Assembly: GCA_002005505.1 (NCBI GenBank)
Contig: KV908632.1
Span: 67,791 to 131,790 of the forward strand
Reading direction: 5' to 3'
DNA from: Botryococcus braunii
Lineage: Eukaryota; Chlorophyta; Trebouxiophyceae
DNA length: 64,000 nucleotides
The translations under genes were made by a program, and so were the position numbers. Below the pieces are notes generated by a model that worked only from the letters and a program-made list of their open reading frames with translations, searched no databases and had not been told where the DNA came from. Positions 8,158 to 60,278 of this stretch are shown one piece after another; the first letter of the stretch is position 1, and the number at the start of each line of letters is the position of its first letter.

Positions 8158-8302
8158 ACAAGTTAGTGCACCTAACCTAACACATTCAGAGTAAGTTTCT
8201 TGGTGGTGAATTTGATGGGCAAGGTCTGATAAGGACGGTAAGGTTCCTTGACTATCATGTTGTTTTGAGGGACCCCTATTGCTAATTGGGCATTTGCAGG
8301 TT

Positions 8303-33500: not shown

Positions 33501-34123
<623 letters not shown>

Positions 34124-34125
34124 AA

Positions 34126-35530
<1,405 letters not shown>

Positions 35531-36976: not shown

Positions 36977-38315
36977 TGTCGTGAAATGGCGTGTGGCTGT
37001 GACTGCAAGTGGACAATCAATAATTGTTGTGTTTATGATGCGAAACCGGTGGAAATATGATGCCGACGAAAGAGAGACATTTGACAGCTCGGAATCGAGT
37101 GGAAATTGTGATGGTACATGTTCATCCCATTGGGGAATAAGACCTAGAAAATGGGCAAGACCTTTTGCCCTGTGGCTCCTGATTTCTGGCCCCTTTCAAG
37201 GCCAATTAGGACCCTCAGGAAGTCCCGTGTTAGGGAGTACAGCCAGAAGTAGACATGGGCTTCAGACTGAATAGATTTACCTTCTCGTGGGTGCTGTGTG
37301 GTGTCGCCCCATGGAAGTGATCGGCACTTAAAGGCACCTACCGATAGATGCCGACGGATGTACCTGAACCTAAAGATTGATGATTTGGCAACTCTAAGCC
37401 GATCAAGACCGTTTCAGGTCTATTCCTAAAAGTTAGCTGCGTGAGAGCTACGCCGGTATACATGTGAAAGCGCCGGTTGTCTATATAAAGAGGGATGCCT
37501 CCCCCTCACAGTTACAGTGAGATTCCAGAAAGTATGGTTGTAAAAGGTTTGCCACAAAATCTGCCTCCTGTCCGGGCCGCGCCCCGATAGTGTGTTAATG
37601 AGTCCTGATTGAATGATCGTTGTTAGTCCCACCAAAGCAATACCTGCAGTGAAACCTGCCTGATTGTCTCATTTACGTAAGATTATCGAAAGTATTGAGC
37701 AACACCCCAGCAACAACTTTGTGCGAGTAACGTAGTACCATAAGACAAGGAGCCGTAATACCCACGCGGGGATCCGCAACGACGCCATCGAGTACGAGTA
37801 AGTGCAAACACTTTAGACGAGACCGAACATTAAATACAGTTATAAGCAACACTTAGGTGAAGCAACAGCACCTAGAACAAGCCGCACGTTCAGTGCCACG
37901 CACCCAAGCCGTAAGGAACAATCGTCCCAAGCCCTCGAGCCAAGGAAGAATAGATACAACCTTGAATAGCCTTGCAAGCTCGCCAAATATAGTTTTAGTA
38001 ATAACAGAACCGTGAAAGACGCAATCGTTTAAGTCCTCTCAACCGTAGCCGCACAGCTAGGTAGCCGCGCGCCTCACCGACTAAAATAGTCCGGCCAACC
38101 AGAAACAAGCCGGCCAGCCGAATCCGCAATCCGGAGCCTTTCCCCGGACCGTAAATCAATTATCACACCGTAACAGCTAGGTCTCAGGGCCGTAATCCCT
38201 GGGTAGCGATCCGACCAATCGATTCGAACCTACATTTATAACCCCGCAGCCCGACTGAATCTCGCTAACTAACCGAAAAATTTTGTGGGGGTACCGTTGG
38301 GCACGGAACCCTGTA
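36977..38315 (+). repeat. E1 5' LTR (A1 block)
   Basis: 1339 bp, TGTCGTGAAATGG to ...CACGGAACCCTGTA, followed at once by the PBS. TATA box TATATAAAG at 37482-37490. It lacks the AAGCACGCTACA end found on the solo LTR, so its inner end does not have the usual CA. A 98-codon open frame near the start (MKWRVAVTAS...) is shared by the LTR copies but has no recognisable function. Confidence 0.93.
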
Positions 38316-38333: not shown

Positions 38334-39232
38334 AGTTTTAGCGCGTAGACTTAGTCATCGCCTAGGCTCTGCGAATCTGACTCTTCTGCGCAGATTTGCC
38401 GTCTATATTGTACACAGACGTACCGTATTTCGAATCAGTTGAGCTTTGTCCACATATAGGACTGGGTATACCCCTTCAGGAGGGGCTTGATTACATTCCG
38501 TTTGTCGCAGGAACTAACAGCAAAAGCAACAGCAACGACCGTTTGGAGCGGAACCATACTTTAGGAAAGTTCAGTTTGAAGCACATCATCATCTGTACTG
38601 CAGAGTTAGTTGAGACAAAGTAATTGATTGTAGCACTTGATTTCTGTTTGTGTGAATCGTATCAACAGTAAAGACCTTAATTCTATATCCGCGATTGCTT
38701 GATTGTTTGTTTATCGAAATCTTTGCAGCCCCAAAGATCGCGGTAGTTGATACGCATCAGGAAGAATATATATTTGATCGATCTAAGCAATTGTAGAAGC
38801 AGTTGTTGTAGTATTTAAAGATCATTCATAGTACCTTTGAAAGGATTGACTTTATCATCTGGAAGTCCAAGGTTGGTGGTATGACCTTGGGGAGGTTTGA
38901 GATACTGCAACATTAGTAAAACAATACGTTAACTTTATAACTGCAGTGAACGTAATTAGCAGAAAGGAACCTCGTAATACCGAATTTACAATAGACTAGC
39001 ATTGCACGATTGCAACTAGGTTCGCGGAATGCCCCTTTAGGAGGGGTCTGATTACACTCCGTTTGTTGAACAGGCACCCCTGCAGCCAGCTAAAACAGCA
39101 GAATCAGCAATACAGTAAGTAGCAGTACCAGCCATATCTGACATTAATTTGTGTCGTGAACACACGAGCGTAATCTCTAATAGTGTGTTAGGCCATCTAG
39201 AGCGCAAGGCCTTGTTTGATTAAACAACTAGA
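38334..39232 (+). promoter_or_regulatory. E1 leader with a duplicated hairpin motif
   Basis: About 900 bases without a gene. A conserved motif with the hairpin CCCCT(T/C)AGGAGGGG-type core followed by TGATTACA(T/C)TCCGTTTG occurs at 38464-38514 and again at 39026-39074. E2 carries both copies at matching places in its own leader (58574-58624 and 58013-58060 on minus). Conservation in non-coding leader sequence suggests an RNA element, for example for packaging, dimerisation or translation; this is inference. Confidence 0.55.
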
Positions 39233-42200
39233 ATGGCAGACGTACAAACTCCTGTTCGTTTAGAATTTTTCTATGGAAAGCCCATAGAAGACCCTTTTCA
39301 GTGGCTTGAGTCCTTTGAGTTGTTTATTGAGATCAACCATGTTGTGGGCGATCGAGTTTTACGATTTGTCAAACACGCAATGCGTGAAGAAGCATATACC
39401 TGGTTTCGTGCAAATCAAGATGACTTTAATGACTGGGATGAATGCAAGGAGGCTTTTCTCGAAAGATTTGGCCTCGACGAGGACACCCTTATGGTGAAAC
39501 TAGACACATGCACACAACAATCCAATGAGACTGTTAGGAGTTATGCTGACAGATTTAGGAAATTAGTGGGTTACTTGCAGAACTCTCTGCCACCCAGAAT
39601 GATAACACAACTATTTGTTAAAGGTCTAGTACCACATCTACGTGAGAGGGTTCAAATGACCTACCCCGGCAAAGGAGCGTTAGCCGACATTATAAAATTG
39701 GCAGCTGATTATGAACAAACATTCGGACACGCGCCTTTAGGGGGCATGTATTCAAACCAGACCATAGAAGTGCCGGTGCGCGAGAGGATTGAGCAATGGA
39801 ATCGCCGCGCCGATGACAATGTGGATCAGCGTGCAGCACGCCCGCCGCCGCAGCAAAATCAGAGAGAGAACAATAGAGACAACAGAAATTGGCAGCGTCA
39901 GCGAGACTTTCCGGAGCGACGCAACCAGCAGCCAGCAGTACCGCCTAGACAGATTGCTCCAATCAACCCACCAAGGGAGGCACCTGCGCCAACCCCAATT
40001 AATGACATTGACACCCTCACAAGGGAGATGGAGAGACTACGAATTCAAATCGCAGAACTACAGCGACAGCCCACAGCCAACTTCACCAAGTTTGTGGAGC
40101 ATGAACAGCAACCCGAGCAACCGCCCCCGGAGCACGCCACAATAATGTATGATGGATTTACGGATCCTTTTCCCGTGTATCCTATATATGCCACTAAGAG
40201 GCCAGCAGAAAGTCCACCTGAAGCAAACCAACCGCTGCTTCGGCGCCGCCCCAACAATCTGGAGGACACTACAGTTGACCCAAGAAACATACCAAGGCCT
40301 GCCGCCCCTCGGCCTGCACCAGCTCAGAGACAACCAGTAGAACCTACAACACCAGCAGCACCCCCGCCTGCACCTGCAAGGGAGCCAGCAGCGCGTCCAC
40401 ACGTGGACCTTGGAGGATTGCCTCCCCTACCTAATGCCGCACGTCCCGCCGCCTACAGGAGACCAGTGGCCATCGCACCAGCAACGGCAGAACCCATACA
40501 GCAGATTAAAGGGCTTCCCATGAAGCTCACCGTACAAACCTACCTGAACCACATCAGCGAGGAGGAGTTCAACAAGTCAATCAAGGAGCTAAAGGAGTCC
40601 CGTGAGGAATTCCTGCGTGACAGACAGCGAGACCCGCCGCCAGCGAGAGCTACCAATGCGGAAGTTATCTACGTTTCTGGAGGGACCACCTCAACTAGCA
40701 GGACTGACAACGAGGAGTCACCTTCAACGCAAATGCCACAATCAAACCTGCAAAGGAATCCGGTGAACACTACTGTTGCCACCGTACCTATAATCATTAA
40801 TGACTTAGTATTTGAGGATGGCATCATTGATACTGGTGCCACAAACACAATGATTTCACAATCAGCCGCACGACAGTTAATTTTAATTGACCAGATTGAG
40901 CCTTCACGTCTTAGATACTCGTGTGCAGATGGGAAAATGTCCACTCCTTGGGGCATTATTCGCAAGCTCCCTGTAGGAGTTGAGGGCTTAGTAATACCAA
41001 TTGACGTATTTGTTAGTGGAGCGACTTCTTATGATGTACTTCTTGGAACAGATTGGCTTACTCAGGCTCACGCCGAGATAAGCTTCGCCAAGCAAGAGAT
41101 GTCTTTTCGAATAGAACCACAAATGATGGGGAGAGTTCCCATCACTGTCATGCCTGCCAGTAAAAGCAGCAACCGATATTGCGTCGCGAGAGTCCCAGGA
41201 ATAGATTTCGATGGTCCCGCGGGTCATCCCGCCGACCCAAGGGTACCTGGGGTACCCGGCCTACCGAACGAAATTTTAAACATTGAGAACGATCTGTCAG
41301 AAGAATCCCAGGAAGAAACAGACCTTTATTCCGGGAGTGAGGGAGAAATTCCTAGTACTGAACCCTCCGATGAGGAGGAAGAGTATTCGGAGGAGCATGA
41401 GGCTTTCTCTTCCGAAAGTGAGATTGAGATTTACAATGCGACAGTAAGCAACGAGGGTCGAGAGCTTGAGTTAGCAGCCCATCCTTACATGACTGAAGAT
41501 TGGATGTTAGAAACTAATATTTTTAGAGAAATTGAAACACAGTGGGGTCCTTTTGACCTCGACGCATGTTGTGATCTCCAAGGTCACAACTCTCAGTTAC
41601 CTTTGTTTTGGTCCGCTGAGGACGATTGTTTACAGCAGAGCTGGACCCATTTGAGTATATATTGCAACCCACCTTTTTCGATAATTGACAGAGTTGTGAA
41701 TCACTGCCTCGCGTGTTTCACCAGTAGTCCCTTTACCACTAGTGCAGTACTTGTGCTACCATGGTGGCCTTCTGCCCCTTGGTTTCCTACAGTAATGGAG
41801 CAATTTGAGATCATCAAACAATACCCTCCTGGTGTGCAGCTTTTCACAGCCCCGGGAGAGGACCCTGCAGGTCCGCGACGTCGTTATGGCCCTACCAGAT
41901 GGCCTGTCATAATTGTTCGTGTCCCCACCTCCCTTAGGAAGGAAGATCCTGGTATGCAGAAGTTGAGAGAGATAATAAATACTGAAAAGATGAAACAGGA
42001 CCCCGATCCCATGTTAAAAATCACCACCGGGATGCGAAAATTGGGTCCTATGAGAGAACAAGAGATTGAGAGATTAGTACAGGAGTACAAGGATGTATTC
42101 ACCCCAGGTATAGTACAAGAAAGAACCACCTTGATGCACCACCGCATAGACACTGGGGATGCGGTCCCCATTAAAACACGCCCTTATCGCTTGTCCCGTT

Positions 42201-44095
42201 CGGAGGATCAGGTGATCGAGGAAGAAGTTCACAAAATGCTAGAGGCTGGAGTGATAGTGCCTTCCAGCTCTCCTTGGTCTAGTTCGCCTGTGTTAGTAGG
42301 CAAGCCGGATGGCTCTGTCCGGTTTTGTATTGACTACCGTCCGTTAAATGCAGTTACCAGACGGGACAATTACCCCATGCCTAGGATAGATGAGACCCTA
42401 GATTCCTTAGGTCAGGGGTTGGAATACTTGAGTAAGATTGATTGCAAGTCAGCCTTCTGGTTGATACCAGTAGCCCCAGAGGACCGTGCAAAAACCGCTT
42501 TTACTACCAAAGAAGGTTTATTCGAGTTTGTATCAATGCCGTTCGGCTTGCGTAACGCCCCGGCTACGCTACAGAGATTTGTTAACACTCTGTTGCAAGA
42601 CTTAATAGGAAAGTGTTGTGTCATGTATCTAGATGACTGTTTGATATACAGCCGCACATTTGAGGACCACCTCACACATCTGAAATTAGTGCTTGAACGC
42701 TTCCATGCGGTGGGCTTTAGAGCCAACCCAGCCAAGTGTGAGTTATGTTGCAGTGAAGTGTTGTACTTAGGATACATTATTACGCCCCAAGGCATAAAGC
42801 CCAACCCTTCCAAGGTTGAGGCAGTACTCAACGCAGCACCGCCGACGAACGTTACCGAAGTCAGGTCCTTTCTGGGACTTGCAAACTACTACAGGAGATT
42901 TCTGCACAACATGGCCGCCATATCTGCCCCTTTGACGCGGCTCACGAAAAAGGGGGTTGTTTTCAACTGGACCACTGACTGCCAAGCCGCCTTCGAAGCC
43001 ATCAAGGCCATGCTAGTGGATGCGCCGCTTCTACGATACCCCGACTTCAACAAGAAATTCACGCTATATACTGACTGGCAGCCCGGAGCCGCCGCCGCTA
43101 TTCTGGGCCAGGAGCTCGAGGATGGTGACCATGTGATCGCATACGCCAGCAAAACTTTACAAGGAGCAGAGCTCAACTACTCTCCAACGGATGGGGAGCT
43201 GCTTGCCATAGTGTGGGCCGTGAAGCTATTCCGCCCCTACCTCTATGGAGTTCAATTTACTATAGTAACAGACCACAAAGCTTTAAAGTGGTTACTCACC
43301 ACACGCAATTTGTCCGGCAAGCTAGCACGATACGCCATCGAACTACAAGAATATGACTTTGACATCCAGCACCGCTCGGGGACCTTGCATGGGAATGTGG
43401 ACTGCCTTTCTCGTCTACGCCTAATGCCGCCCCCTGGAGAAGACTACAGTGAAGAGCCGCCGCCGCCGCCGCTAGAAGAAGAAAATAATGAGGAGAACCG
43501 CATGCACTGCTGCTACACCATGACCTTTGACAAGGAAAAAATGCCGCCTGCTGGAGACACAATGGACCTGGACCAACCTTACCAGCCACCCGCGCCCGAC
43601 ATCACCCAGCGCGGAGAGATAGTAACTTCACCAACCCTACGCCGCATGACGACCCCGGAGGATGATGCACCCCCTTCTAGGGGCTGCCTTCCGGAGATGA
43701 GAATTGAATCAACACAGGTTTATGACCTGCCGCCGCCTACTGAGACTTTATCTGGCCGTTCTGCCGCCCTGGCCAGCCAAGAACCTATGACTACACCGCG
43801 TACGCGTTTTGACAGCCCGCCGCTTATGGAGGATGTACCGTGCCAAGTATGCACGGGAAGAGATGATGAGGAGACCATGCTACTATGTGACCTCTGCAAC
43901 CACGGATACCACATCGACTGTTTGGAGCCTGCACTGGCCCGGGTACCCAGGGGACCCTGGCTATGCCCTTTATGTGACCAGATTGCAGATGCCGTCCCCA
44001 CTCGTGACATTGTGGACGATGAAGAAGTACTTGACTACCTAGCCGCCGACAAACGACACCGACCGGGACAAGCCGCAAGGATGCTAAGCGAATAG
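39233..44095 (+). CDS. E1 polyprotein: Gag, protease, Dam-like adenine methyltransferase, RT, RNase H, PHD finger (1620 aa)
   Basis: ATG at 39233 (MADVQTPVRLEFFYGKP). Gag domain about residues 1-170 (DPFQWLESFELFIEINHVV, then ETVRSYADRFRKLVGYL), then a long Pro/Arg/Gln-rich region without a CCHC knuckle. Protease IIDTGATNTM has Asp533. Residues about 756-905 resemble phage-type DNA N6-adenine methyltransferases of the Dam family: DWMLETNIF, GPFDLDACCD (774-781), FWSAEDDCLQQSW, YCNPPFS (catalytic NPPF 812-815) and VLVLPWWP. RT follows with MYLDDCLIYS (Asp1134-Asp1135), RNase H (LYTDWQPGAAAAIL, TDHKALKWLL), then a PHD finger about 1537-1581 (CQVC, LCDLCNHGYHIDC, WLCPLC). The frame ends at 44095 where integrase continues in the -1 frame. 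A methyltransferase between protease and RT is most unusual for a DDE-integrase element. Confidence 0.93.
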   Translation: MADVQTPVRLEFFYGKPIEDPFQWLESFELFIEINHVVGDRVLRFVKHAMREEAYTWFRANQDDFNDWDECKEAFLERFGLDEDTLMVKLDTCTQQSNETVRSYADRFRKLVGYLQNSLPPRMITQLFVKGLVPHLRERVQMTYPGKGALADIIKLAADYEQTFGHAPLGGMYSNQTIEVPVRERIEQWNRRADDNVDQRAARPPPQQNQRENNRDNRNWQRQRDFPERRNQQPAVPPRQIAPINPPREAPAPTPINDIDTLTREMERLRIQIAELQRQPTANFTKFVEHEQQPEQPPPEHATIMYDGFTDPFPVYPIYATKRPAESPPEANQPLLRRRPNNLEDTTVDPRNIPRPAAPRPAPAQRQPVEPTTPAAPPPAPAREPAARPHVDLGGLPPLPNAARPAAYRRPVAIAPATAEPIQQIKGLPMKLTVQTYLNHISEEEFNKSIKELKESREEFLRDRQRDPPPARATNAEVIYVSGGTTSTSRTDNEESPSTQMPQSNLQRNPVNTTVATVPIIINDLVFEDGIIDTGATNTMISQSAARQLILIDQIEPSRLRYSCADGKMSTPWGIIRKLPVGVEGLVIPIDVFVSGATSYDVLLGTDWLTQAHAEISFAKQEMSFRIEPQMMGRVPITVMPASKSSNRYCVARVPGIDFDGPAGHPADPRVPGVPGLPNEILNIENDLSEESQEETDLYSGSEGEIPSTEPSDEEEEYSEEHEAFSSESEIEIYNATVSNEGRELELAAHPYMTEDWMLETNIFREIETQWGPFDLDACCDLQGHNSQLPLFWSAEDDCLQQSWTHLSIYCNPPFSIIDRVVNHCLACFTSSPFTTSAVLVLPWWPSAPWFPTVMEQFEIIKQYPPGVQLFTAPGEDPAGPRRRYGPTRWPVIIVRVPTSLRKEDPGMQKLREIINTEKMKQDPDPMLKITTGMRKLGPMREQEIERLVQEYKDVFTPGIVQERTTLMHHRIDTGDAVPIKTRPYRLSRSEDQVIEEEVHKMLEAGVIVPSSSPWSSSPVLVGKPDGSVRFCIDYRPLNAVTRRDNYPMPRIDETLDSLGQGLEYLSKIDCKSAFWLIPVAPEDRAKTAFTTKEGLFEFVSMPFGLRNAPATLQRFVNTLLQDLIGKCCVMYLDDCLIYSRTFEDHLTHLKLVLERFHAVGFRANPAKCELCCSEVLYLGYIITPQGIKPNPSKVEAVLNAAPPTNVTEVRSFLGLANYYRRFLHNMAAISAPLTRLTKKGVVFNWTTDCQAAFEAIKAMLVDAPLLRYPDFNKKFTLYTDWQPGAAAAILGQELEDGDHVIAYASKTLQGAELNYSPTDGELLAIVWAVKLFRPYLYGVQFTIVTDHKALKWLLTTRNLSGKLARYAIELQEYDFDIQHRSGTLHGNVDCLSRLRLMPPPGEDYSEEPPPPPLEEENNEENRMHCCYTMTFDKEKMPPAGDTMDLDQPYQPPAPDITQRGEIVTSPTLRRMTTPEDDAPPSRGCLPEMRIESTQVYDLPPPTETLSGRSAALASQEPMTTPRTRFDSPPLMEDVPCQVCTGRDDEETMLLCDLCNHGYHIDCLEPALARVPRGPWLCPLCDQIADAVPTRDIVDDEEVLDYLAADKRHRPGQAARMLSE

Positions 44096-45285
44096 CACGC
44101 CGGGCCCAGAACTACTACTTTGCCGCCGAAGAATTCCCTATTGAATGGAGGACCCGCAACTGGCCACTTGTACGAAAGGCCACAAGAGGATTTGGCCCAC
44201 GTACCGTACCATGGTACGAGGACAGACTTGACATCATTAAGGAGCTACACGATGACATGGGCCACTACGGAATTAACCGTACAATACATCTTATAAAGGA
44301 GCGCTTTTACTGGACAGATATGTCCCTCGACGTCAAAATATACATCCAGCATTGCCCTGGATGTCAATTCAGGACCATTCAGCTCACCAAGCCGGTGGAG
44401 CTGACTCCCGTAGCCGTCACGGGGGTCTTCCATATGATTGGAGTGGACCTGACAGGACCCATGGATGCGCCCTCGGGGCGAGAGAAAGTGTACACTTGCC
44501 CCGCCATAGACTACCTCACCAAATGGGTGGAGGCCAAGATTATCCCAAACAAAGAGGCATCGACTACCGCAAAATTTTTCAAAGAAGAGATTCTGGCACG
44601 GCACGGCTGCCCCCAGATTGTTATTACGGACAATGGCCAGGAATGGCAAGGAGAATTCCAGATATTAATGGACCAATGCTTCATAGAAGTAAGGAAGACC
44701 AGCCCATACCATCCACAAGCCAACGGCCTCGTCGAGAGGTTTCATGGCACTTGAAAGAGAAGCTCGGGCAAGCCGCCCTTGAAAGCCCTGGAGCATGGGA
44801 CCGCAAGCTACCTGACATTCTTTGGGGTACCGGACGAGTCCCCAGGGTTCCACCAAGCACAGCCCCTTCCGGTTGTTGTACGGAAGAGCAGCCACCCTAC
44901 CTATCGACAACAAGACTTTACCAAGCACCACGCCGGACATGGCAGGCGGGGAAGGAAGTTGCCCCCGCGAGAGACATCAAGAGGAGATAGCAGCCGCCCA
45001 CACCAACATTTTGCGCGCCCAAGAGCGCCAGAAAAGAGAATACGCTCAGAAGCTGAAGCCCACCAAGCGTGGACGAGAGATTGAAGAAGGGCTACGTAAC
45101 CTACAGCCTGGAGACTTAATAGCCGTCAAAAATCGAAAGAAGCACAAGTTGGCCCCCCCTTTGTGGGCCCCTTCATCTTCAAGGAGTACTACGACGACAG
45201 CACGCTTGTTATCCAAAATTCTAAAGGAAAGATGTGGAGGGAATCCATCCACACTATTGGAAAGTACCATCACGACCGCCGTTAA
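44083..45285 (+). pseudogene. E1 integrase, broken by frameshifts
   Basis: Integrase continues in the -1 frame from about 44083 (KRIARRAQNYYFAAEEF). It has a zinc-binding region (HYGINRTIHLIKERF, then CPGCQF) and catalytic Asp (VDLTGPMD), Asp (VITDNGQEW) and Glu (HPQANGLVERF). Frame changes follow near 44750, 44820 and 45165, each needed to keep the alignment going (LKEKLGQAALESPGAWDRK, then YRTSPQGSTKHSPF, then a final segment ending YHHDRR at 45285). The first shift at the PHD/integrase boundary could be a real -1 frameshift signal, but the later ones are decay. Confidence 0.85.
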
Positions 45286-45540: not shown

Positions 45541-46618
45541 TGTCGTGAAATGGCGTGTGGCTGTGACTGCAAGTGGACAATCAATAATTGTTGTGTTTAT
45601 GATGCGAAACCGGTGGAAATATGATGCCGACGAAAGAGAGACATTTGACAGCTCGGAATCGAGTGGAAATTGTGATGGTACATCTTCATCCCATTGGGGA
45701 ATAAGACCTAGAAAATGGGCAAGTCCTTTTGCCCTGTGGCTCCTGATTTCTGGCCCCTTTCAAGGCCAATTAGGACCCTCAGGAAGTCCCGTGCAGGGAG
45801 TACAGCCAGAAGTAGACATTGGCTTCAGACTGAATAGATTTACCTTCTCGTGGGTGCTGTGTGGTGTCGCCCCATGGAAGTGATCGGCACTTAAATGCAC
45901 CTACCGATAGATGCCGACGGATGTACCTGAACCTAAAGATTGATGATTTGGCAATTCTTAGCCGATCAAGACCGTTTCAGGTCTATTCCTAAAAGTTAGC
46001 TGCGTGAGAGCTACGCCGGTACGCTCATGAAAGCGCCGGTTGTATATAAAGAGGGATGCCTCCCCCTCACAGTTACAGTGAGATTCCAGAAAGTATGGTT
46101 GTAAAAGGTTTGCCACAAAATCTGCCTCCTGTCCGGGCCGCGCCCCGATAGTGTGTTAATGAGTCCTGATTGAGTGATCGTTGTAGTCCCACCAAAGCAA
46201 TACCTGCAGTGAAACCTGCCTGATTGTCTCATTTACGTAAGAATATCGAAATTATTGAGCAACACCCCAGCAACAACTTTGTGCAAGTAACGTAGTACCA
46301 TACGCCAAGGAGCCGTAATACCCACGCGGGGATCCGCAACGACGCCATCGAGTACGAGTAAGTGCAAACACTTTAGACGAGACCGAACATTAAATACAGT
46401 TATAAGCAATACTTAGGTGAAGCAACAGCACCTAGAACAAGCCGCACGTTCAGTACCACGCACCCAAGCCGTAGGGAACAATCGTCCCAAGCCCTCGAGC
46501 CAAGGAAGAATAGATACAACCTTGAATATCCTTGCAAGCTCGCCAAATATAGTTTTAGTAATAACAGAACCGTGGAAGACGCAATTGTTTAAGTCCTCTC
46601 AACCGTAGCCGCACAGCT
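45541..46618 (+). repeat. E1 3' LTR (A2 block), 3' truncated
   Basis: About 1078 bp matching 36977-38060, with TATATAAAG at 46043-46051. The match ends at CGCACAGCTA (46618), where Copia G1 sequence begins. The outer end and TSD are therefore missing. Confidence 0.9.
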
Positions 46619-49130
46619 ACGTGTGGCGCGGACTTGCAGCACTTGTGTAACAGTGGGCGCGGACTTGCAGCACTTGTGTAACAGGGTTCTGGATCCAAAG
46701 CGTCCGTACTTCCCGCGGCTGCACTTTTACCATGCTTAGTCCCACTAGGATCAAGACCAAAGTGGTCCTGATCCTTTCCCGTTTGCTCTCCAGCACTAAC
46801 TAGTGTAGTACCCTGATCTAGCTCTAAGCTAATTTCTGAGATATCTAATGCAGAAGAGACATCAGGCATTTGCTCAGTGTTATCACCATCATCAGAATGT
46901 CCATCTTCTGAGTCAGAATCAGAGACACTCACTAGTGATGGGCAAGTGTCATCCTCATCGTCTTCAGCCAATGCTTCAGGCAGATCATGAACAGCATGTT
47001 CAGAGAAGTTGACATATTCTCTGCAGTAAACATCAATCTTTCCATCAACAAGAACTTTGTAGTTCTTGCTAAGGCCATCATAACCTACAAAGATACCCTC
47101 AGCACTGACAGGCTCAAATTTCCCTCCCCTCTTTGACTTAGGAAGAAGGAGAAAACATTTGGAGCCAAAGATTCTGAGATGTGAAACATTGGGAGCCTTT
47201 CCATGCATCATTTCAAATGGGGTTTTGCTCAAGTGCTTAACAGGAGACATATTTCTAACATAATTTGAAGTAAGAAGAGCTTCACCCCAGTTTTCAGATG
47301 ATAAACCTGAGGCAGCTAGCAAACACCTTGCTTTCTCCTGTAGCGTACGGTTGAGCCTCTCTATTTTCCCATTCTGCTGATGTGCATATGGGGCAGTCTT
47401 CTGGTCAACTGCCCCATGCTCCCTACAGAATTTGAACAACCCATTGAACTCAGTACCATTATCTGTTCTGATAAATTGTACTTTACAGTCTTGCTGGTTT
47501 TGCAAAGCTGTGAGAATGTATGTAGCTTCTTTTGCTGCATCACTCTTAGATTTAATCAGAACAACAAGTGAGTACTCTGTGAACTCATCCAAAATGACAA
47601 GGGCATACTTGTATCCTTCAGGAGTTTCAGGATCTATGGGGCCCATAAGGTCCATGTGAATGACTTCAAGAGGTTTTGAACAAGTATTTTGGGTTGATTT
47701 AAATGGTGAGGCTGTCTGCCTCCCATGCATACAGGCATCGCAAGTACCTTGATGACCAATGCACTTGGATAGGTCACCTGATGGGAGTTTCAAGCCTTCT
47801 ACCATTTTCTCCCTGCTCAACCTTTGCAAGTTCTGAGCAGAGAGATGACCAAAACGCTGATGCCATATGTTTACCAGATCTACATCCACCTTTGTATGGT
47901 TGCACTGTGTCTTTTCATTTGACACTGGTAGGGAAACACTGTTTTGTATAGAAAGGTCTGTGAGCCACTGATAAGGGTATACATGTTCAGCAATGCCCAC
48001 AAGATCACCATTTGAATCTGTAAGGTGACAGTGAATGCCATTTATATGAACATCTAACCCATCATGATAGGCCTTCCCTACAGACAATAAACGCTTTTTA
48101 GCTGAGGGTACATGTTTAACATTGTACAGGTAAAGAGAGTTTCCTGTTTCCAGGAAGACCTGCACAGTACCCTCACCAATGATTTCCTCCCTACCACCAT
48201 TTGCTACTATCAGGATATCTGGTTTATCATACTTGACATAATTCATCATATTCTCACAGTCAGGGGAAATATGATCTGTTGAACCAGAATCTATCAGCCA
48301 ACCAGAAATAGAGGGTTCAGAGCAAACTGTATATAGCTGTGTGCAGTGGCTCTGCTTTGGTGGAGAAGCAAAGCTAACTCTCTTCCCCTCCAACTTTGGG
48401 CAGGTCTCTATGCTGTGTCCATCCTGCTTGCAGTACCTGCAAAATGGTAAAGGCCTCCCTATCTGTTGGAAGGCTGTTTTACCACTCTGCCCACCACCAC
48501 CTTGATTAGCACCTTTCTCTACAGCATTTGAAGTAGGAGAATTTGGTGCCTTATACTTAAGGTTGTAACCTTGACCAGGAGAGGACTTCTGGTTAAAGGT
48601 GTTGGTTTTAGGTGGTGGGGTTTGGAGTTTCTTATTCACTATCTGCATATGTGCCAGCTCTAAAGAGTGTTGTAGCAGATTCACATCAGGATTGGACACT
48701 ATAATAGATTGTTGAACCTGCTTATGTATATTATACTCCTCAGGGAGTCCATTTAAAAGCATAGTGCAGAGTGAGAGGTCACTGAACTCATGTCCTAAGC
48801 TTTTAATTGTGTTGGCTATTTTTCTACCCCTTAACACATATGAGGAAGGTTTCTCATTTGTATGCATCTTGAAGGTGCGGGACTCTTCCTGGAGGGATAT
48901 GATTTTGCCATTTGCTTTTGTAACAAATAGGGCCATTAAGTAGTCCCACAAAGAGTAGGCAGACAAATGATCAGAGATTTGTATTTGATACTCCTCTGAA
49001 CATGACTGTGTTATAATGCTCTGGGCCTTATAATCATCTAAATAGCCTCTCATGTCATGAAGAATACAGTATTCTACCCCCATCTCTATAAGCATTGCAT
49101 GAACATATCTAGACCATATGACCCAGTTAT
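46619..49130 (-). pseudogene. Copia element G1: gag to integrase fragment
   Basis: One continuous minus-strand frame with no RT. It starts inside gag at 49130 (NWVIWSRYVHAM), followed by a Copia gag domain (DYLMALFVTKANGKIISLQ). A CCHC knuckle (CRYCKQDGHSIETC), protease (WLIDSGSTDHIS), the pre-integrase motif IWHQRFGHLS and the integrase core (HMDLMGPI, FIRTDNGTEF, HQQNGKIERLN) follow. It then passes into a Ser/Asp/Glu-rich linker where RT should follow. The right flank is where G2 inserted (49131); the left is broken at the E1 LTR (46618). A 31-bp unit containing GCGCGGACTTGCAGCACTTG is duplicated at 46625-46685. The last roughly 20 residues to the stop at 46555 come from the E1 LTR. Confidence 0.9.
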
Positions 49131-49921: not shown

Positions 49922-50258
49922 CCGTTTGGTGTCGATACTGGTCACTGCTCCCGCCAGCAGCGAGGAGAATAATACGCATACAACTATTTGCAAGCTTCAG
50001 CAAGTCTCCAAAAATTTTCGCCCATTTCTCTGCTTTCAACGTAGTTGTTTGTAGTGTCTTGGGTTGAACGATCGCTTGGAACTTCGGGTTGCTGGATTGT
50101 CTCGCTGGAAAGGCACTTGTGTTGATCCAGTAGTGAGAGACAATTGGATGTATTGGCTGTTGGGATCTGGTGGTTGTGGAATATCTGTTTAAAGTGCAAG
50201 CAAGTTTGTTTTCCTTTTAATCTTTCTTTGCCAGTTGCCCGTCAAGGCTTCTGGAATA

Positions 50259-51983: not shown

Positions 51984-53500
51984 TCACGTCCTTATCGGGT
52001 TCCCGTTACCCAAGGTAGACAAATTTTTTTTCTGATTGAAATTAGAGATTGTGCAACTAACGTTAGTAATAGCTGGGCTGCGGCTTCTGTATCAAGGTAA
52101 ATTATTCGGATCGCCACTCAAGGATTCGGCCTTGAGACCTGGGTTACCGGATTACTGGATTACTGGTACTTTCGATTCTGCGATTCGATGGCTGGAGGTT
52201 AGAATCGGAGACTGCTGCGGTTCAAGTCACGGATGTTTTAGTCGGAGTTTCGTAGTCGGGATCACCGGCTTGCGGCCTAGCGCAGGCCGGACTATCGGAC
52301 TTTGGGTCGACGGCTGGAGTATGAAGTTAACTGGAGTTATAAATCAGATATTTCACTTTCAAAGGTGTTAATCTATCTTATTCTAGTCCTGCTGTCAGGG
52401 TTTGATGCTCCTCTTCAGGATCCGGATTGGTACTACGGTGCGTGATGTTACGACTGATGTGTGGCGGCTACGTACCAAGTCACTTGCGGCGCTTGTCAAA
52501 TGAAACTTATGAACGACTATACGATAAACCAACAATTACTAAAGGTACTGGAACAGGTTAAATGATTATTACTGCACGAGAGTGGGACGGCTAGATCTCG
52601 ATAGTGATCGTCGGTTCTTGCTAAAGAGGCGGAATGCTCACTGATACTATTAAGATTTGATAGATGATATTCAAAGCGATACTGACACCGAGTTTCAGAG
52701 GTGTTGCTTCACAATTACGACAAGTTACGACTGACAAGTCGGGTAGATCAAGTTACGACTAGGACATTCAAGGACAAACAGACACATGCACTTTAACGCA
52801 GGCGAGACGGACGTGGCTGGTAGGAATCTTGGGGTTCAACTTGTGCTTACAAAGAGATTTGCGACAGAGGTTTCCCTCTCCTAACACCTAGCACAGCGTG
52901 GTTTAGAGGACGGCTGGTCGCCCTTAAATAGTATTCCCCGAACTTACGCGGGGATTCGGGATCTTTCAGGACCCCGCTGGAACGAAGTGTCCAGAGGAAT
53001 CACGTTCCTCTAGTGCCCAGGTTACAACTGATTCTGAGCTGCCACGTAATCCACAAAGCAGGATCACTTGACACGTAAAGAGAATCTAGATAGTTCTGGT
53101 TAAATCAAGCAGATCCTGAACATGAAGTTCACAATGAAGAGACGCTAAACATTACACGTCACCACTTTTCTAGAAAGTACGAGCTGATTCCTGAAACATC
53201 AAGGAACTGTTTAGCAGCTGCGTAGGTACTGCACATTAAAACTGGCCTTCAAGCGGGCCCACAACGTGTCAAATAGCAAATTTCCTTCTAAGTCCCACTC
53301 CAGACCAACACGTGCGGGGCTGGGACTTGAAAGGGCACAAGATTGAGGGTTTTATCAAGCAGTACAAAATCCTCTCGAGCCGCGCAAGTCCCGACTCGAG
53401 GGCGCAGTCTTCCCGGTCTCCAGGGCACCCGGAAAGGACATATTCTGTTCGAAATCCATTATGGCTACTTAGTATAACAGGCACTTGCTATATCGTCACA
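51984..53500 (-). repeat. E2 3' LTR (A2 block 53500-51995) plus terminal B2 motif (51994-51984)
   Basis: On minus the LTR starts TGTGACGATATAGC and runs to GGGAACCCGATA, then AGGACGTGACA at the outer end before the TSD. The 11-base outer motif is not present at the inner end of the 5' LTR (58772), where the PBS follows GGGAACCCGATA directly. Except for this motif the block matches 58772-60278 with only a few differences (for example near 52616, and around 52933-52947). Confidence 0.92.
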
Positions 53501-54002: not shown

Positions 54003-57000
54003 TTAGATTGATGCTCGGATGCGCTGACGTGTTGCATATTTCTCGTTGAGATATCCATGATAGCAAAATGACCCAAGTTGTGACGGCGGCATGCGGCACA
54101 CCTGGTCCTTGGTCATTGACCCTGGAATAAGTTCTTGTACTTCGCCCTTGCTGCAAGGTACTTTGTAGGTGTTGTTGTCGGTTGCTGCGTGTTGGGGAGG
54201 TGATTCAGAATGCACCGCATTTGCGGCATCACCGTTGTTGATCAGGGACCCTTGGTCCATGAGTATAGTTGCGCAGGGCTGAATTGCTCGTGCCGCGGCT
54301 CCTTGCTTACGTATTCCTTCCAAATCCAAACTCCGACATGCCAACGTGATACTGCTTTGGCTGAAGTCCTTTAGAGCAAGCTTCTTATCATGCATGGTCT
54401 TCCTCCGTAGGGAGGTTGCATCCTTTAGCATTCTACCGGTGGTGATATAAGCTACTTTAAACCTTTTCAATGCGGGCAATACTATTCCTTTTCTAAATAT
54501 TTCAACAAGTCTTGTGGGAATTCCAAACACTCTAGGTAAAACACTACAACATTTGTGCGTCCAGCCTAAAGAAGGCATGGCACTCCCAGTACTATCATGT
54601 GGGGCACTTTTAAAGTGAACTGGTTCTAACATAGAACACATTACTTTTGCTGACGCGAACAGTGGGCTGAAGTGGTCTGAGTCTTTTATGTTGCATGAGT
54701 TCGCTGGGGCGACGCACAAGCGAGGGCTCGTGGGGGTACTTAATACATTGTGACTACGGTCAATCTGAGGCTTCTGCGTACTATTTACTGCGTGTTGAAG
54801 GTGATCCGGGGAATGCGCATCCCGGGGTTGCGTCGGTAGACATAAATTAACTACTTTTGATTGTATTGCGGCAGACTTAGGCTGCATGGGGACTCCCGTT
54901 AGACTGTTGTCCTGGTGTACCACTGCTTCTGCAGGGACAGCGATAAGGTGCGGCAAACCGGGGTCTATCCTATGATGAATTAAAGTAGTACGTTGCTGCG
55001 TATTGCCAGGGGAAAACACATCCCTGCACTCCATGACAAGTCCAAGGGCGCGCTTGCGCTCCTCGGGTAAAATTTTGGTCCCCAGGGGAACCTCTTCCGG
55101 CTCAAGGTGGTATGTCTCTTCTTCAATTATTTGGATGTCTGGCAATTTCTGTAGGCCGGGGTCTTCAGTCAAGTTGGGTGCAGGGGTCTTCACAATCATC
55201 ACCTGCCAACGGGTAGGCCCCACACGCATGCGAGAAGAGCTGGGGGATCGTCCCGGGGCTGTAAACAGCTGCACTCCTGGAGGATATTGTCGAACGATTT
55301 GGAATTTCTCCATTACTATCGGAAACCATGTGGCTTCAGGCCACCAGGGTAAAACAAGGACGGCTGACGTCGTGGTTGGGCTGCTATCATAATATGTGAG
55401 GCAGTGCTGCACAATCTCCATTGCTTTTGAAAAAGGTGGGTTGCAGTAAATGTTCTTGTGGGTCCAATCTTGCTTCAAACAGTCTTGCTGGGGTGTCCAA
55501 AAGTAAGGCAATTGAGAGTTGCGGCCTTCCTGATCGCAGCAAGCGTCAAGGTCAAATGGGCCGAATTGCTCCTCAATGTCTTTGAATATATTCTTTTCTA
55601 GCATCCAATCTTCGGTGTTACTCGTTGAAGGCGGCGAGAGAGATGGTCCCTCTGCAAGGGTGATGTCGGCGGCGGTGGAATTTAAAAAGCCTACTTGCAT
55701 TGCTTGTGGCTCCTCAATAAGGTCAGGGTATTCTTCCACAGATGATGAACTGGCAGTCTCTCCACTACTGACTTCTTCTTCGCTTGAATCCTCGGGCGCA
55801 GAGGTGTCAGAGGCGCTCTCGTCGAAATAAATTACTTCTGGCAGTGCCGGTACCTCCGGTCCCTCCGGGTCTCCCAGGTTCTCAACGGGAGCCCGCATAA
55901 CACAATAACGATTAAAAGTCTTATCAGATGGCAGTACTGTTATAGGGACTTTCCCAATGAGGTTAGGGTCTATTTTGTATGACATTTCTGACTTGGCAAA
56001 GCTGATCTCTGCGTGGGCTTGGGTAAGCCAATCGGTACCCAGCAGTACATCGTAGTTCGTCGCTCCACTAACAAAAACGTCAATTGGGAATATCAATCCA
56101 TCAACACCTACTGGTAGCTTTCTAATTATGCCCCATGGGGCAGACATGTTGCCATCAGCACATGAATACTTAAGTCTACAAGGCTCGATCTGGTTAAGCA
56201 TGCCCAGTTGTCTAGCTGCAGATTGCGATATCATGGTATTGGTTGCTCCAGTGTCAATAATTCCTTCCTCAAAGATAGTATTGTTAAGAATAATAGGGAC
56301 TGTGGCTACAGTGGTGCTGATCGGGTTGCGTTGCAGATGCTGTTGGACTCGCGGTGCCTCCGGCGTATCGCTGGCTGAGGGGCTCTCGGAGGTGTCACTA
56401 GAGATTACTACAAGCTCTGCCTCCGCAGCTCTTGGCGGGGTTGAAGTGGTTTGCTTGCTTCGCTGGAATTGTTGGCGGGACGCATGTAGCTCTTGGATGG
56501 ATCTTTGAAATTCCTCCTCACTAATATGATTCAAATAGGATTGTACTGTCAGCTTCATAGGTAGCCCTTTAATTTGTTGGATAGGCTCGCTGGAAGGGGC
56601 TGGCACAACTGGTGGTCTCCGGTACGCCGGCCGGGGAGGATCTGGAAGTGGTGGCAGTCCCCCTAAGTCGACTGGCGGGCGCGGCGCAGGTGCCCTCCTA
56701 GGAAAAGCAGGTACTGGGGCTGGCGTAGGCGGTGCAGCAGTTGAAGGATTATTTCTTGGTGCTGAAGGTTCATTAGGCCCTGGGGCAGCTGGCCTATTTG
56801 AAGATCTGGGGTCCACAGTGGTGTTTTGCACATTATTAGGCCGGCGGCGTAGCAATGGCTGATCCAATTCAGGTGGATTTTCGGCTGGTCTTTTGGTGGC
56901 GTAGACGGGGAATGGGTCAGTAAACCCATCATACATCATCCTTACTTGGGGCTGTTCTTCTTCGGCTGGGTCCTCATGAAACTGAGTAAAATTAGCGGCG

Positions 57001-57854
57001 GGCATGGGCCTCTGTAATTCTGCAATTTGAATTCTGAGTCTCTCCATCTCTCTGGTAAGCGTATCTATATCGGTTGCGGGTGGCGGAAGAGGTGCCTCCC
57101 TAGGTGGGTTAGCTGGTGCAATCTGTCTTGGCGGTGCTGCTGGTTGCGGCTGATTACGCCTCTCGGGGAAATCTCGCTGACGCGGCCAGTTTCTATTTTC
57201 TCTATTATCTCTGTTGTTCTCCCTTTGATTTTGCTGCTGCGGCGCGCGTGGCGCTCGCTGATCCACATTGTCAATGGGGCGGCGAGACCAAGGCTCACTT
57301 CTCTCGCGTGCTGGTACTTCTGTGTTTTGATTGACGTACATACCTCCTAATGGTGCATGCCCAAAGGTCTGTTCATAGTTTGCAGCCAAACGTATTATGT
57401 CGGCTAACGCTCCATTGCCGGGGTAGGTCATCTGTACTCGCTCCCTAAGATGGGGAACTAAGCCTTTCACAAATAACTGGGTCACCATCCTGGGTGGCAG
57501 AGAGTTCTGCAAGTAACCCACTAATTTCCTGTATCTGTCAGCGTAGCTGCGAACGGTCTCATTTGACAATTGTGCACATGTGTCTAACTTTAACATAAGG
57601 GTGTCTTCATCAAGGCCAAATCGTTCAAGAAAGGCCTCTTTACAGTCATCCCAGTCATGTATATCATCTTGATTTGCGCGGAACCATGTGTAAGCCTCCT
57701 CGCGCATGGCATGCTTAACAAAACGTAAAACCCGATCACCCACTACTTGGTTGATCTCAAGAAAAAGTTCAAAAGACTCTAACCACTGAAAAGGGTCCTC
57801 TGTAGGCTTTCCATAGAAAAATTCCAAACGTACTGGGGCTTGTATGTCTGCCAT
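54003..57854 (-). CDS. E2 polyprotein: Gag, protease, Dam-like methyltransferase, then an unknown ~300-residue tail (1283 aa)
   Basis: ATG at 57854 (MADIQAPVRLEFFYGKP). Gag and protease (IIDTGATNTM) align closely with E1. The methyltransferase region keeps every marked motif: DWMLEKNIF, GPFDLDACCD (767-774), FWTPQQDCLKQDW, YCNPPFS (NPPF 805-808) and VLVLPWWP, with the same 38-residue spacing between FDLD and NPPF as E1. The match to E1 stops after TTLIHHRIDPG, just before the RT would begin. About 300 further residues follow that I do not recognise (for example SAMPSLGWTHKCCSVLPRVF and RRKTMHDKKLALKDF), open to the stop at 54003. RT, RNase H, PHD and integrase are all missing. An open frame of this length in a recently moved element argues for a product that is still used. 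Confidence 0.9.
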   Translation of the reverse strand: MADIQAPVRLEFFYGKPTEDPFQWLESFELFLEINQVVGDRVLRFVKHAMREEAYTWFRANQDDIHDWDDCKEAFLERFGLDEDTLMLKLDTCAQLSNETVRSYADRYRKLVGYLQNSLPPRMVTQLFVKGLVPHLRERVQMTYPGNGALADIIRLAANYEQTFGHAPLGGMYVNQNTEVPARERSEPWSRRPIDNVDQRAPRAPQQQNQRENNRDNRENRNWPRQRDFPERRNQPQPAAPPRQIAPANPPREAPLPPPATDIDTLTREMERLRIQIAELQRPMPAANFTQFHEDPAEEEQPQVRMMYDGFTDPFPVYATKRPAENPPELDQPLLRRRPNNVQNTTVDPRSSNRPAAPGPNEPSAPRNNPSTAAPPTPAPVPAFPRRAPAPRPPVDLGGLPPLPDPPRPAYRRPPVVPAPSSEPIQQIKGLPMKLTVQSYLNHISEEEFQRSIQELHASRQQFQRSKQTTSTPPRAAEAELVVISSDTSESPSASDTPEAPRVQQHLQRNPISTTVATVPIILNNTIFEEGIIDTGATNTMISQSAARQLGMLNQIEPCRLKYSCADGNMSAPWGIIRKLPVGVDGLIFPIDVFVSGATNYDVLLGTDWLTQAHAEISFAKSEMSYKIDPNLIGKVPITVLPSDKTFNRYCVMRAPVENLGDPEGPEVPALPEVIYFDESASDTSAPEDSSEEEVSSGETASSSSVEEYPDLIEEPQAMQVGFLNSTAADITLAEGPSLSPPSTSNTEDWMLEKNIFKDIEEQFGPFDLDACCDQEGRNSQLPYFWTPQQDCLKQDWTHKNIYCNPPFSKAMEIVQHCLTYYDSSPTTTSAVLVLPWWPEATWFPIVMEKFQIVRQYPPGVQLFTAPGRSPSSSRMRVGPTRWQVMIVKTPAPNLTEDPGLQKLPDIQIIEEETYHLEPEEVPLGTKILPEERKRALGLVMECRDVFSPGNTQQRTTLIHHRIDPGLPHLIAVPAEAVVHQDNSLTGVPMQPKSAAIQSKVVNLCLPTQPRDAHSPDHLQHAVNSTQKPQIDRSHNVLSTPTSPRLCVAPANSCNIKDSDHFSPLFASAKVMCSMLEPVHFKSAPHDSTGSAMPSLGWTHKCCSVLPRVFGIPTRLVEIFRKGIVLPALKRFKVAYITTGRMLKDATSLRRKTMHDKKLALKDFSQSSITLACRSLDLEGIRKQGAAARAIQPCATILMDQGSLINNGDAANAVHSESPPQHAATDNNTYKVPCSKGEVQELIPGSMTKDQVCRMPPSQLGSFCYHGYLNEKYATRQRIRASI

Positions 57855-58754
57855 GATAATTGTTCAATCAAACAAGGTCTTATGCTCTAGATTGCCTAAC
57901 ACACTATTAGAGGTTACGCTTGTGTGTTCACGATACTAATTAATGTCAGATACTGTTGATACTGCTATATACTATATTGCTGATTCTGCTATTATAGCTG
58001 GCTGTAGGGGTGCCTGTTCAACAAACGGAGTGTAATCAGACCCCTCCTAAAGGGCATCCCACTAACTCTGATAATGGAGTTGCAGGTAAGTTTTCCTTCA
58101 AACCAGGGTACTGTGAAGCTTGTTAATAATTTTATTTCTCCAACAAACGATAAAACAAATATAAGTATTTCACGATTTGCAGAAGCTCGAGTCTCAATTC
58201 AGCTAGTTACGCCAACCTCGGACCTTCAACTCATAAATGCAAACAGTGCAGATGAACTCTGGAAGTACTTTTAATGTGAAATAAGACCTCTCTTCTACAG
58301 AGGAGATCGAAATGTTATGTATTTCCACAGATGCGTATCACAAAACCGCGATCTTTGATGTTGCTAAGATTTCGAAAAAGAAACAGATATGCAAACGCGA
58401 TTCCAAAAGTATAGTATTTACTATTTCTCAATTGTATTCAAACAGAAAACAAGTACTGAGAGCTATCAGATTGTCTCAACTAACTTCTGCAGTACACTGA
58501 TGGGGTGCTTCAAACTGAACTTTCCTAATATATGGTTTCGCTGCAAATGGTCGTTGCTGATGTCTTTGCTGTCGTTCCTGCGACACACGGAATGTAATCA
58601 AGCCCCTCCTAAAGGGGTATACCCAGTTCTATAAGCGGACAAAGCTCAACTGATTCCAAATACGGTACTCACGTGGTGCTATAAACACGGCAAATCTGCG
58701 CAGAAGGCCAGATTCGGAGAGCTCAGGCGCTGACTAATTCAACGCGCTAAAACT
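57855..58754 (-). promoter_or_regulatory. E2 leader with a duplicated hairpin motif
   Basis: Non-coding leader between PBS and ORF. The motif seen in E1 occurs twice (plus 58013-58060 and 58574-58624), each with the hairpin CCCCTCCTAAAGGG(G) on plus next to a conserved GGA(G/A)TGTAATCA. Confidence 0.55.
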
Positions 58755-58771
58755 CCCTGGACGGATCGCCA
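58755..58771 (-). other. E2 primer-binding site
   Basis: The minus strand reads TGGCGATCCGTCCAGGG directly after the A1 LTR end GGGAACCCGATA. Confidence 0.6.
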
Positions 58772-60278
58772 TATCGGGTTCCCGTTACCCAAGGTAGACA
58801 AATTTTTTTTCTGATTGAAATTAGAGATTGTGCAACTAACGTTAGTAATAGCTGGGCTGCGGCTTCTGTATCAAGGTAAATTATTCGGATCGCCACTCAA
58901 GGATTCGGCCTTGAGACCTGGGTTACCGGATTACTGGATTACTGGTACTTTCGATTCTGCGATTCGATGGCTGGAGGTTAGAATCGGAGACTGCTGCGGT
59001 TCAAGTCACGGATGTTTTAGTCGGAGTTTCGTAGTCGGGATCACCGGCTTGCGGCCTAGCGCAGGCCGGACTATCGGACTTTGGGTCGACGGCTGGAGTA
59101 TGAAGTTAACTGGAGTTATAAATCAGATATTTCACTTTCAAAGGTGTTAATCTATCTTATTCTAGTCCTGCTGTCAGGGTTTGATGCTCCTCTTCAGGAT
59201 CCGGATTGGTACTACGGTGCGTGATGTTACGACTGATGTGTGGCGGCTACGTACCAAGTCACTTGCGGCGCTTGTCAAATGAAACTTATGAACGACTATA
59301 CGATAAACCAACAATTACTAAAGGTACTGGAACAGGTTAAATGATTATTACTGCACGAGAGTGGGACGGCTAGATCTCGATAGTGATCGTCGGTTATTGC
59401 TAAAGAGGCGGAATGCTCACTGATACTATTAAGATTTGATAGATGATATTCAAAGCGATACTGACACCGAGTTTCAGAGGTGTTGCTTCACAATTACGAC
59501 AAGTTACGACTGACAAGTCGGGTAGATCAAGTTACGACTAGGACATTCAAGGACAAACAGACACATGCACTTTAACGCAGGCGAGACGGACGTGGCTGGT
59601 AGGAATCTTGGGGTTCAACTTGTGCTTACAAAGAGATTTGCGACAGAGGTTTCCCTCTCCTAACACCTAGCACAGCGTGGTTTAGAGGACGGCTGGTCGC
59701 CCTTAAATAGTAATCCCCGAACTTACGCGGGATTCGGGATCTTTCAGGACCCCGCTGGAACGAAGTGTCCAGAGGAATCACGTTCCTCTAGTGCCCAGGT
59801 TACAACTGATTCTGAGCTGCCACGTAATCCACAAAGCAGGATCACTTGACACGTAAAGAGAATCTAGATAGTTCTGGTTAAATCAAGCAGATCCTGAACA
59901 TGAAGTTCACAATGAAGAGACGCTAAACATTACACGTCACCACTTTTCTAGAAAGTACGAGCTGATTCCTGAAACATCAAGGAACTGTTTAGCAGCTGCG
60001 TAGGTACTGCACATTAAAACTGGCCTTCAAGCGGGCCCACAACGTGTCAAATAGCAAATTTCCTTCTAAGTCCCACTCCAGACCAACACGTGCGGGGCTG
60101 GGACTTGAAAGGGCACAAGATTGAGGGTTTTATCAAGCAGTACAAAATCCTCTCGAGCCGCGCAAGTCCCGACTCGAGGGCGCAGTCTTCCCGGTCTCCA
60201 GGGCACCCGGAAAGGACATATTCTGTTCGAAATCCATTATGGCTACTTAGTATAACAGGCACTTGCTATATCGTCACA
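58772..60278 (-). repeat. E2 5' LTR (A1 block)
   Basis: 1507 bp; the outer end on plus is TATCGTCACA, followed by TSD GCTT. On the minus strand a TATA-like TATTTAAGG lies near 59706-59698. It is nearly identical to 51995-53500. Confidence 0.92.

Follow-up and report, generated by a model that had tools for sequence, protein, structure and literature searches.

What does an adenine methyltransferase do inside the Gag-Pol polyprotein of a retrotransposon? The question is raised by a 64,000-nucleotide stretch of the green alga Botryococcus braunii (contig KV908632.1, positions 67,791 to 131,790; hereafter the window), where two retroelements, E1 and E2, encode a Dam-like N6-adenine methyltransferase domain (Dam), located in E1 between the protease and the reverse transcriptase (RT). 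The best explanation for the observations as a whole, which we consider somewhat probable, is that PHD-finger-bearing Gypsy (PHD-Gypsy) elements possess a lasting phage-type Dam in Gag-Pol, that this module has been exchanged, and that it methylates the element's own complementary DNA (cDNA) in cis.

The nature of the domain is indicated by motifs, profiles, and a structural model. In the E1 frame, motif I (GPFDLDACCD) starts at residue 772 (position 41546), FWSAEDD lies 20 residues and motif IV (YCNPPFS) 38 residues beyond this start (position 41660), and the Pfam profile PF05869 matches residues 756-858 (E 4.8e-13, 49.6 bits vs. a cut-off of 28.1). The domain exceeds these motifs, as profile and model span about 41492-41941. 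E2 displays the same 38-residue spacing and a match of E 5.4e-16 (59.2 bits, cut-off 28.1), and the Dam profile is matched significantly by 20 of the 21 members of alignment A2. The AlphaFold model of the E1 domain (predicted local distance difference test, pLDDT, 87; predicted template modelling score, pTM, 0.82) adopts a confident N6-adenine-methyltransferase fold, and its VIA matches are N6-adenine methyltransferases. The features that define the Dam family, an S-adenosylmethionine (SAM)-dependent methyltransferase fold, motif I, and (D/N)PP(F/Y/W), are present in the modelled domain. The phage N6A methyltransferase profile TIGR01712 is matched with E 9e-13 (48 bits) by E1 and 4e-13 (49 bits) by E2 at an equivalog cut-off of 97, and both domains are classed as relatives, not members, of that family. 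Sequence and model together denote a predicted DNA N6-adenine methyltransferase with putative methylation activity.

E1 is assigned to the Ty3/Gypsy long terminal repeat (LTR) retrotransposons, and there to a PHD-finger-bearing lineage, because Gag, protease, RT, and RNase H follow in this order and are accompanied by LTRs and a DDE-integrase region. The Pfam order in its frame is Retrotrans_gag, aspartic protease, PF05869, RVT_1, RNase H, and a PHD finger, whose nearest solved structures are KMT2D, KMT2C, ATXR5, and Lid. The integrase region lies in a different, broken frame; in the close relative P0003, PF00665 shares one open frame with the rest. At the repeat ends as placed by BLAST, neither a target-site duplication nor a tRNA primer site was recognized. 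An identity of E1 and E2 as DIRS elements was rejected: a protease is present in both, an integrase region in E1, and the tyrosine recombinase profile PF00589 was not found in the E1 frame by the Pfam search. An initial annotation, made from the letters of the window, had proposed a Dam-like domain between protease and RT of a Gypsy-type Gag-Pol with a DDE integrase, its three motifs in a defined order and spacing. For E1 this was borne out in full by the motif positions, the PF05869 match, the domain order, the LTRs, the integrase region, and PF00665 in the P0003 frame. For E2, motifs and spacing stood and the supposed full Gag-Pol did not, since nothing of RT to integrase follows Dam. The finding named beforehand as refutation, the lack of any significant profile or structure match, did not occur, given the significant PF05869 match and the confident AlphaFold fold.

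Relatives were sought with the Dam part of E1 among 5.8 billion proteins, restricted to 0.55-1.75 times the E1 protein length. Ten proteins were returned, every one a retroelement polyprotein: eight Gypsy proteins of the E1/E2 kind, one chromodomain Gypsy, and one DIRS-like. Six of them (P0003, P0006-P0010; P0010 starts at Dam) show the order protease-Dam-RT-RNase H-PHD-integrase, as established from Pfam lists, Dam and RT positions, and direct reading of the sequences, and two (P0004 and P0005, the latter starting inside Gag) consist of Gag-protease-Dam and a tail resembling that of E2. In the chromodomain Gypsy P0011, Dam is situated upstream of the protease; P0012 was called DIRS-like from its RT-RNase H-Dam order, no tyrosine recombinase being seen in the DIRS-like rows. 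A profile search among short proteins yielded 11 matches, and in two short proteins, P0023 and P0025, Dam runs into an apparent protease, judged by eye. In eight of the 11 DIRS-like Dam domains (P0012-P0016, P0019-P0021), NPD or NAD replaces NPP at motif IV, which may signify altered or lost catalysis. The DIRS-like polyprotein P0020 (1439 aa) combines a C5-cytosine methyltransferase (PF00145) with Dam, adjoining RT.

A six-frame search of the genome to which the window belongs (176 Mb, 989 contigs) gave at least 72 Dam matches on many contigs, all over the Pfam cut-off, which excludes chance. This number is a lower bound, because the E1 domain itself as query revealed further copies (e.g. C93:500420 and C25:38612). 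Of the 70 Pfam Dam loci retrieved from outside the window, 20 came with long flanking sequence and 50 as short segments. The domain is open over at least 150 residues in 57 of the 72, the other 15 being partial or carrying stops or frameshifts, and the open copies fall into three subfamilies: A (26 copies, E1 type), B (13 copies, 81-83% identical to the E1 domain), and C (18 copies, E2 type, 66-69%). All three are under purifying selection. Between A and B, dN is 0.12 and dS 1.05 (dN/dS 0.12); dS is saturated in 422 of 468 A-C pairs and in all 234 B-C pairs. Within the subfamilies, median dN/dS is 0.18 (A), 0.21 (B), and 0.19 (C), taken over pairs with dS above 0.05 (164/325, 12/78, and 136/153, respectively). 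YCNPPFS is unaltered in 49 of the 57 open copies.

A genomic protease search, in which 150 of 576 candidates were scored, listed 91 matches, so that its counts are lower bounds; 23 matches of fewer than 110 residues were set aside. Among the 68 remaining matches listed, 61 are followed downstream, within 1.5 kb and on the strand of the protease, by a Dam from the Pfam list. As for the other seven, the E1-domain search located Dam in one, Dam lies 7 kb away, perhaps split off by an insertion, in a C-type copy, and one copy, on C178, has no Dam of the Pfam list within 1.5 kb; the last four (C48:132864, C164:22070, C206:132442, C184:99033) form a fourth, diverged protease group without detectable Dam and are considered below. 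In the window itself, two PHD-finger Gypsy elements on the minus strand (3500-12069 and 13992-17028), in which no Dam was found, have RTs 39% and 35% identical to that of E1.

E2 is classed, from its sequence, as a member of a non-autonomous family in which RT, RNase H, PHD, and integrase are replaced and Gag, protease, and Dam are kept. Twelve C elements with long sequence (11 loci and E2) were compared. Eight of them consist of Gag, protease, Dam, and then the tail, and are devoid of RT, RNase H, PHD, and integrase (the Gag of L011 is broken up). Two others are complete to the integrase, one has neither RT nor tail, and one has RT and a partial RNase H within the sequence stretch examined. 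The Dam-tail junction is identical across 12 non-autonomous copies, a count that excludes L134, which is out of frame as displayed. Distinct changes in 12 copies with Dam and tail amount to 32 synonymous and 26 non-synonymous ones in Dam vs. 53 and 112 in the tail (p 0.003), and after a two-group split the pooled omega of the tail (0.64) exceeds that of Dam (0.23; p 3.2e-4). Pairwise ratios among the non-autonomous copies are 0.10 for Gag, 0.13 for the protease, 0.15 for Dam, and 0.66 for the tail. Dam therefore seems to be needed by the element encoding it, since copies without the enzymes for copying and inserting retain it under selection. In the subfamily A elements L025, L026, and L028, a sequence sharing about 64% identity with the tail of E2 takes the place of most of the integrase; a related tail would thus have displaced different parts in two subfamilies.

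The origin of the module was approached with a Dam tree of 59 rows, taken from domain matches of the A1 profile after removal of duplicates and of viral-contig matches weaker than 1e-9. A branch with support of 100/99 splits 30 retroelement-type rows (14 Gypsy, 11 DIRS-like, and five of unknown context) from 29 phage rows, mostly from a motif-based scan beyond which a nearer donor may exist; the support becomes 100/100 once four long-branched rows are removed. A fresh phage-to-Gypsy capture on each occasion is not favoured, given these 30 retroelement-type domains apart from the phage rows. The two comparisons outlined in the initial annotation, of dN/dS across genomic copies and of the phylogeny with DIRS and phage domains, came out as purifying selection and as separation from the phages, and the catalytic residues it singled out are kept in most other copies. 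In the reduced tree, all 14 Gypsy rows are found together on one side of a branch (94/98; four unknown-context rows uncounted). Grouping them alone, with P0028 outside, is rejected (approximately unbiased, AU, test, p 0.005), and the support for a DIRS-to-Gypsy direction of transfer is weak (65/30). The RT tree comprises 13 Gypsy rows; eight DIRS-like rows, which resisted useful alignment (at most 5.1 bits vs. at least 131), were excluded. Here, P0011 joins two Dam-less chromodomain Gypsy elements of the window (100/99), and a single clade of the nine Dam bearers, a group named after viewing the first tree, is rejected (AU p 2.3e-5). Two separate Gypsy lineages by RT carry Dam; the initial annotation included neither the second of them, with Dam at another position, nor the non-autonomous nature of E2. 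From this discordant RT placement, the module seems to have passed from one retroelement lineage to another, at differing polyprotein positions, and was probably exchanged among DIRS-like, PHD-Gypsy, and chromodomain Gypsy lineages.

It is supposed that Dam would be made within Gag-Pol, between protease and RT, and that the polyprotein would be packaged in the particle, where the protease would free the domain. Dam would then methylate adenines of the element's own new cDNA (or of the RNA/DNA hybrid), and the new copy would reach the nucleus bearing N6-methyladenine (6mA), by which it could pass for active host DNA or evade silencing. We infer this route from the place of Dam beside RT, from its selection in copies unable to reverse-transcribe or integrate alone, and from the Ty3/Gypsy life cycle. 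For RT and integrase, the non-autonomous family can resort to full-length relatives, yet it keeps a Dam of its own; the domain therefore probably works in cis, on the genome with which it is packaged. The proposed benefit relies on passages describing that 6mA marks expressed genes together with H3K4me3 in Chlamydomonas and several protists (PMC12695648) and on a similar proposal, in part of another paper, for retrotransposon cytosine methyltransferases (PMC5890265). Only tentatively, and with the balance tilted against it, may this be extended to a selfish self-marking, in which the packaged Dam writes the host's active-DNA mark 6mA on each cDNA in cis, parasitic derivatives can shed RT, RNase H, PHD, and integrase but not Dam, and the module is shared by DIRS-like, PHD-Gypsy, and chromodomain-Gypsy elements. 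The genome has five MT-A70 matches, at two places. Its 35 matches to chlorophyll a/b-binding proteins, and one exon whose nearest solved structures are LHCA3 chains, mark the host as a photosynthetic eukaryote of the green lineage; hydrophobin gave no match, in a search whose control matched nowhere either. GATC shows no consistent depletion or excess (26 found vs. 37 expected in E1; 36 vs. 32 in E2).

Several observations weigh against methylation of the own cDNA by an indispensable Dam. Four of the protease copies, 68-70% identical to E1, have no Dam by the E1-domain search, nor was any seen in the one of them read directly; related elements hence live without it. YCNPPFS is altered in eight of the 57 open copies, and the Gypsy fragment P0026 has NTPF. 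In the non-autonomous copies, constraint is weaker on Dam (omega 0.23) than on Gag and protease (omega 0.04 each, from five and six copies, respectively). Synonymous diversity (pS) among them reaches 0.133 in Dam vs. 0.079 in the tail, and the histories implied by the distances of these two regions disagree. Recombination with full-length copies is therefore likely, and such copies, themselves under selection, may have contributed some of the diversity and selection signal of Dam. No solved relative was significantly matched by sequence to the Dam domain, so that we infer its cofactor and target contacts. Finally, 6mA is not enriched in transposable elements of Trichomonas, as stated in a passage of PMC12695648.

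Other roles of the domain have to be considered besides cDNA methylation. It could methylate the genomic RNA of the element, on its adenosines or on the one next to the cap, and thereby aid stability, translation, or packaging, which we rate as unlikely; a likeness to PCIF1 was dropped as a pointer to an RNA substrate, since a phage control is PCIF1-like as well. A catalytically dead domain, kept in the polyprotein to bind nucleic acid or as a structural component, would agree with the NPD or NAD of the DIRS-like rows (8/11, with one more of the 11 lacking such a motif) and with NTPF in P0026; catalysis may be dispensable in parts of the family. This role is nonetheless quite unlikely, as NPP followed by F or W is retained in all of P0001 to P0010 (10/10) and in P0011, and the columns invariant across families are depleted of changes: departures from the majority of the own subfamily occupy 8 of 1197 cells at the 21 columns invariant over the 11 retroelement rows of alignment A1, vs. 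145 of 6783 elsewhere (p 2e-4).

An action on host or rival DNA, by altering host 6mA near target sites or in defence against DNA viruses and rival elements, would be in line with anti-viral roles proposed for transposon-borne methylases (in passages of PMC6338049) and with a PHD finger that could tether the enzyme to chromatin. Selection, however, persists in copies without PHD and integrase, and a function in the particle fits better than one on chromatin, which renders such targets very unlikely. An assembly chimera or chance similarity, in favour of which nothing was found, has a negligible probability and was rejected on the profile matches, the 72 loci spread over many contigs, and the ten further polyproteins in public collections, of which P0004 possibly stems from this genome or one very close to it. 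Methylation of the element's own cDNA remains the preferred explanation.

The features of both elements are compiled in Table 1.

Table 1. Features of E1 and E2, in coordinates of the window.
Feature	Position	Strand	Evidence or remark
E1 5' LTR	36977..38059	+	97.4% identity to 45541-46619 over 1083 columns
E1 Gag-Pol open frame	39224-44095	+	1620 residues counted from first ATG
E1 Gag (capsid-type) region	39233..39772	+	Retrotrans_gag E 7.7e-13, residues 45-132
E1 aspartic protease	40784..41110	+	PF13975, PF13650, PF08284 over cut-off, residues 518-626
E1 Dam-like N6-adenine methyltransferase domain (predicted)	41492..41941	+	PF05869; AlphaFold; 72 genomic matches
E1 RT	42299..42781	+	RVT_1 E 3.8e-34, residues 1023-1183
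E1 RNase H	42968..43354	+	PF17917 E 2.9e-34, PF17919 E 1.7e-31
E1 PHD finger	43841..43975	+	PF00628 E 2e-11, residues 1537-1581
E1 integrase region, frame interrupted	44059..45267	+	tblastn with P0003 integrase region, 54% identity
E1 3' LTR	45541..46619	+	direct repeat partner of 36977-38059
Repeat beside E2, probable LTR, ends approximate	51990..53500	-	99.7% identity to 58769-60278 over 1511 columns
E2 open frame: Gag, protease, Dam, tail	54003..57863	-	without RT, RNase H, PHD, integrase
E2 tail in place of RT-to-integrase, weakly constrained	54006..54983	-	junction common to 12 non-autonomous copies
E2 Dam-like domain	55179..55616	-	PF05869; 68% identity to E1 domain
Repeat beside E2, probable LTR, ends approximate	58769..60278	-	partner of 51990-53500

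E2 is flanked by Copia-type Gag and Pol parts on the plus strand (50193-52100 and 60018-61424), as if it had inserted into a copia element. At 33860-35520, long TAA/AAT repeats harbor two near-identical pieces of about 400 bases, seen by eye, which start with CCGTACCGTCGCAAAATATTGACCC, finish in roughly its inverse, and resemble a small inverted-repeat transposon within a microsatellite.

Several parts of this picture have precedents, described here from passages of the cited papers. DIRS elements with Dam, and Gypsy as well as DIRS elements with C5 methyltransferases, are already published (PMC3783388, PMC5890265, PMC6338049). DIRS tyrosine-recombinase retrotransposons carry a DNA N6-adenine methyltransferase (MT) domain (PMC3783388, PMC3266345), the function of which was termed unknown in 2011 (PMC3266345). 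E1 and E2 share with them a PF05869 domain in a retroelement pol, and the Dam tree joins DIRS-like and Gypsy domains against phages. DIRS elements differ in their RT-RNase H-MT order, tyrosine recombinase, and lack of a protease, whereas the E1 kind, bounded by LTRs, displays protease-Dam-RT-RNase H-PHD-DDE integrase. The Gypsy element KnitGypsy-Dnmt3 from Klebsormidium has a cytosine methyltransferase in Pol (PMC5890265) and likewise represents a methyltransferase captured in a green-lineage algal Gypsy Pol, with key residues kept and under purifying selection; its enzyme, a C5-cytosine methyltransferase of the Dnmt3 type, has no structural relationship to the Dam family, and neither non-autonomous forms nor PHD turned up in a term search of the paper's text. 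Among algal mobile elements, a possible N6-adenine methyltransferase also occurs in DNA transposons such as Sola1-1_Ec32 (PMC12477816), in a ParB and N4C/N6A methyltransferase protein that is encoded by a separate gene in another architecture. A search of open-licence papers for PF05869 in retrotransposons gave only the fungal DIRS paper, and in the titles, abstract starts, and passages covered, with Repbase outside the search, a DDE-integrase element with Dam was nowhere described.

Phage N-6-adenine-methyltransferases resemble the element domains (hhalign probability 99.6, E 6e-24) in an FDxDAC-like motif I and an NPPF motif IV, which follow in like order and at a like distance. They differ in forming a separate branch (100/99), the element domains staying under the TIGR01712 cut-off, and a C-terminal FT.P stretch with R...G...W, present in all 11 rows of alignment A1, is absent from the seven phage rows of alignment A3; P0004 and P0005, outside A1, are also without LFTAP. 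A further parallel is offered by TR-GAG and those other non-autonomous LTR elements that retain Gag only. E2 resembles them in having kept Gag and lost RT and integrase, and differs in retaining protease and Dam under selection as well. Such derivatives, short of most enzymes yet Dam-bearing, constitute a natural experiment, by which the gain of a retroelement from adenine methylation becomes testable in one alga with a 150-residue domain. Enzyme modules that cross retroelement superfamilies are indicated, and the enzyme family known from DIRS is encountered here in a well understood retroelement class, at two positions and in two lineages.
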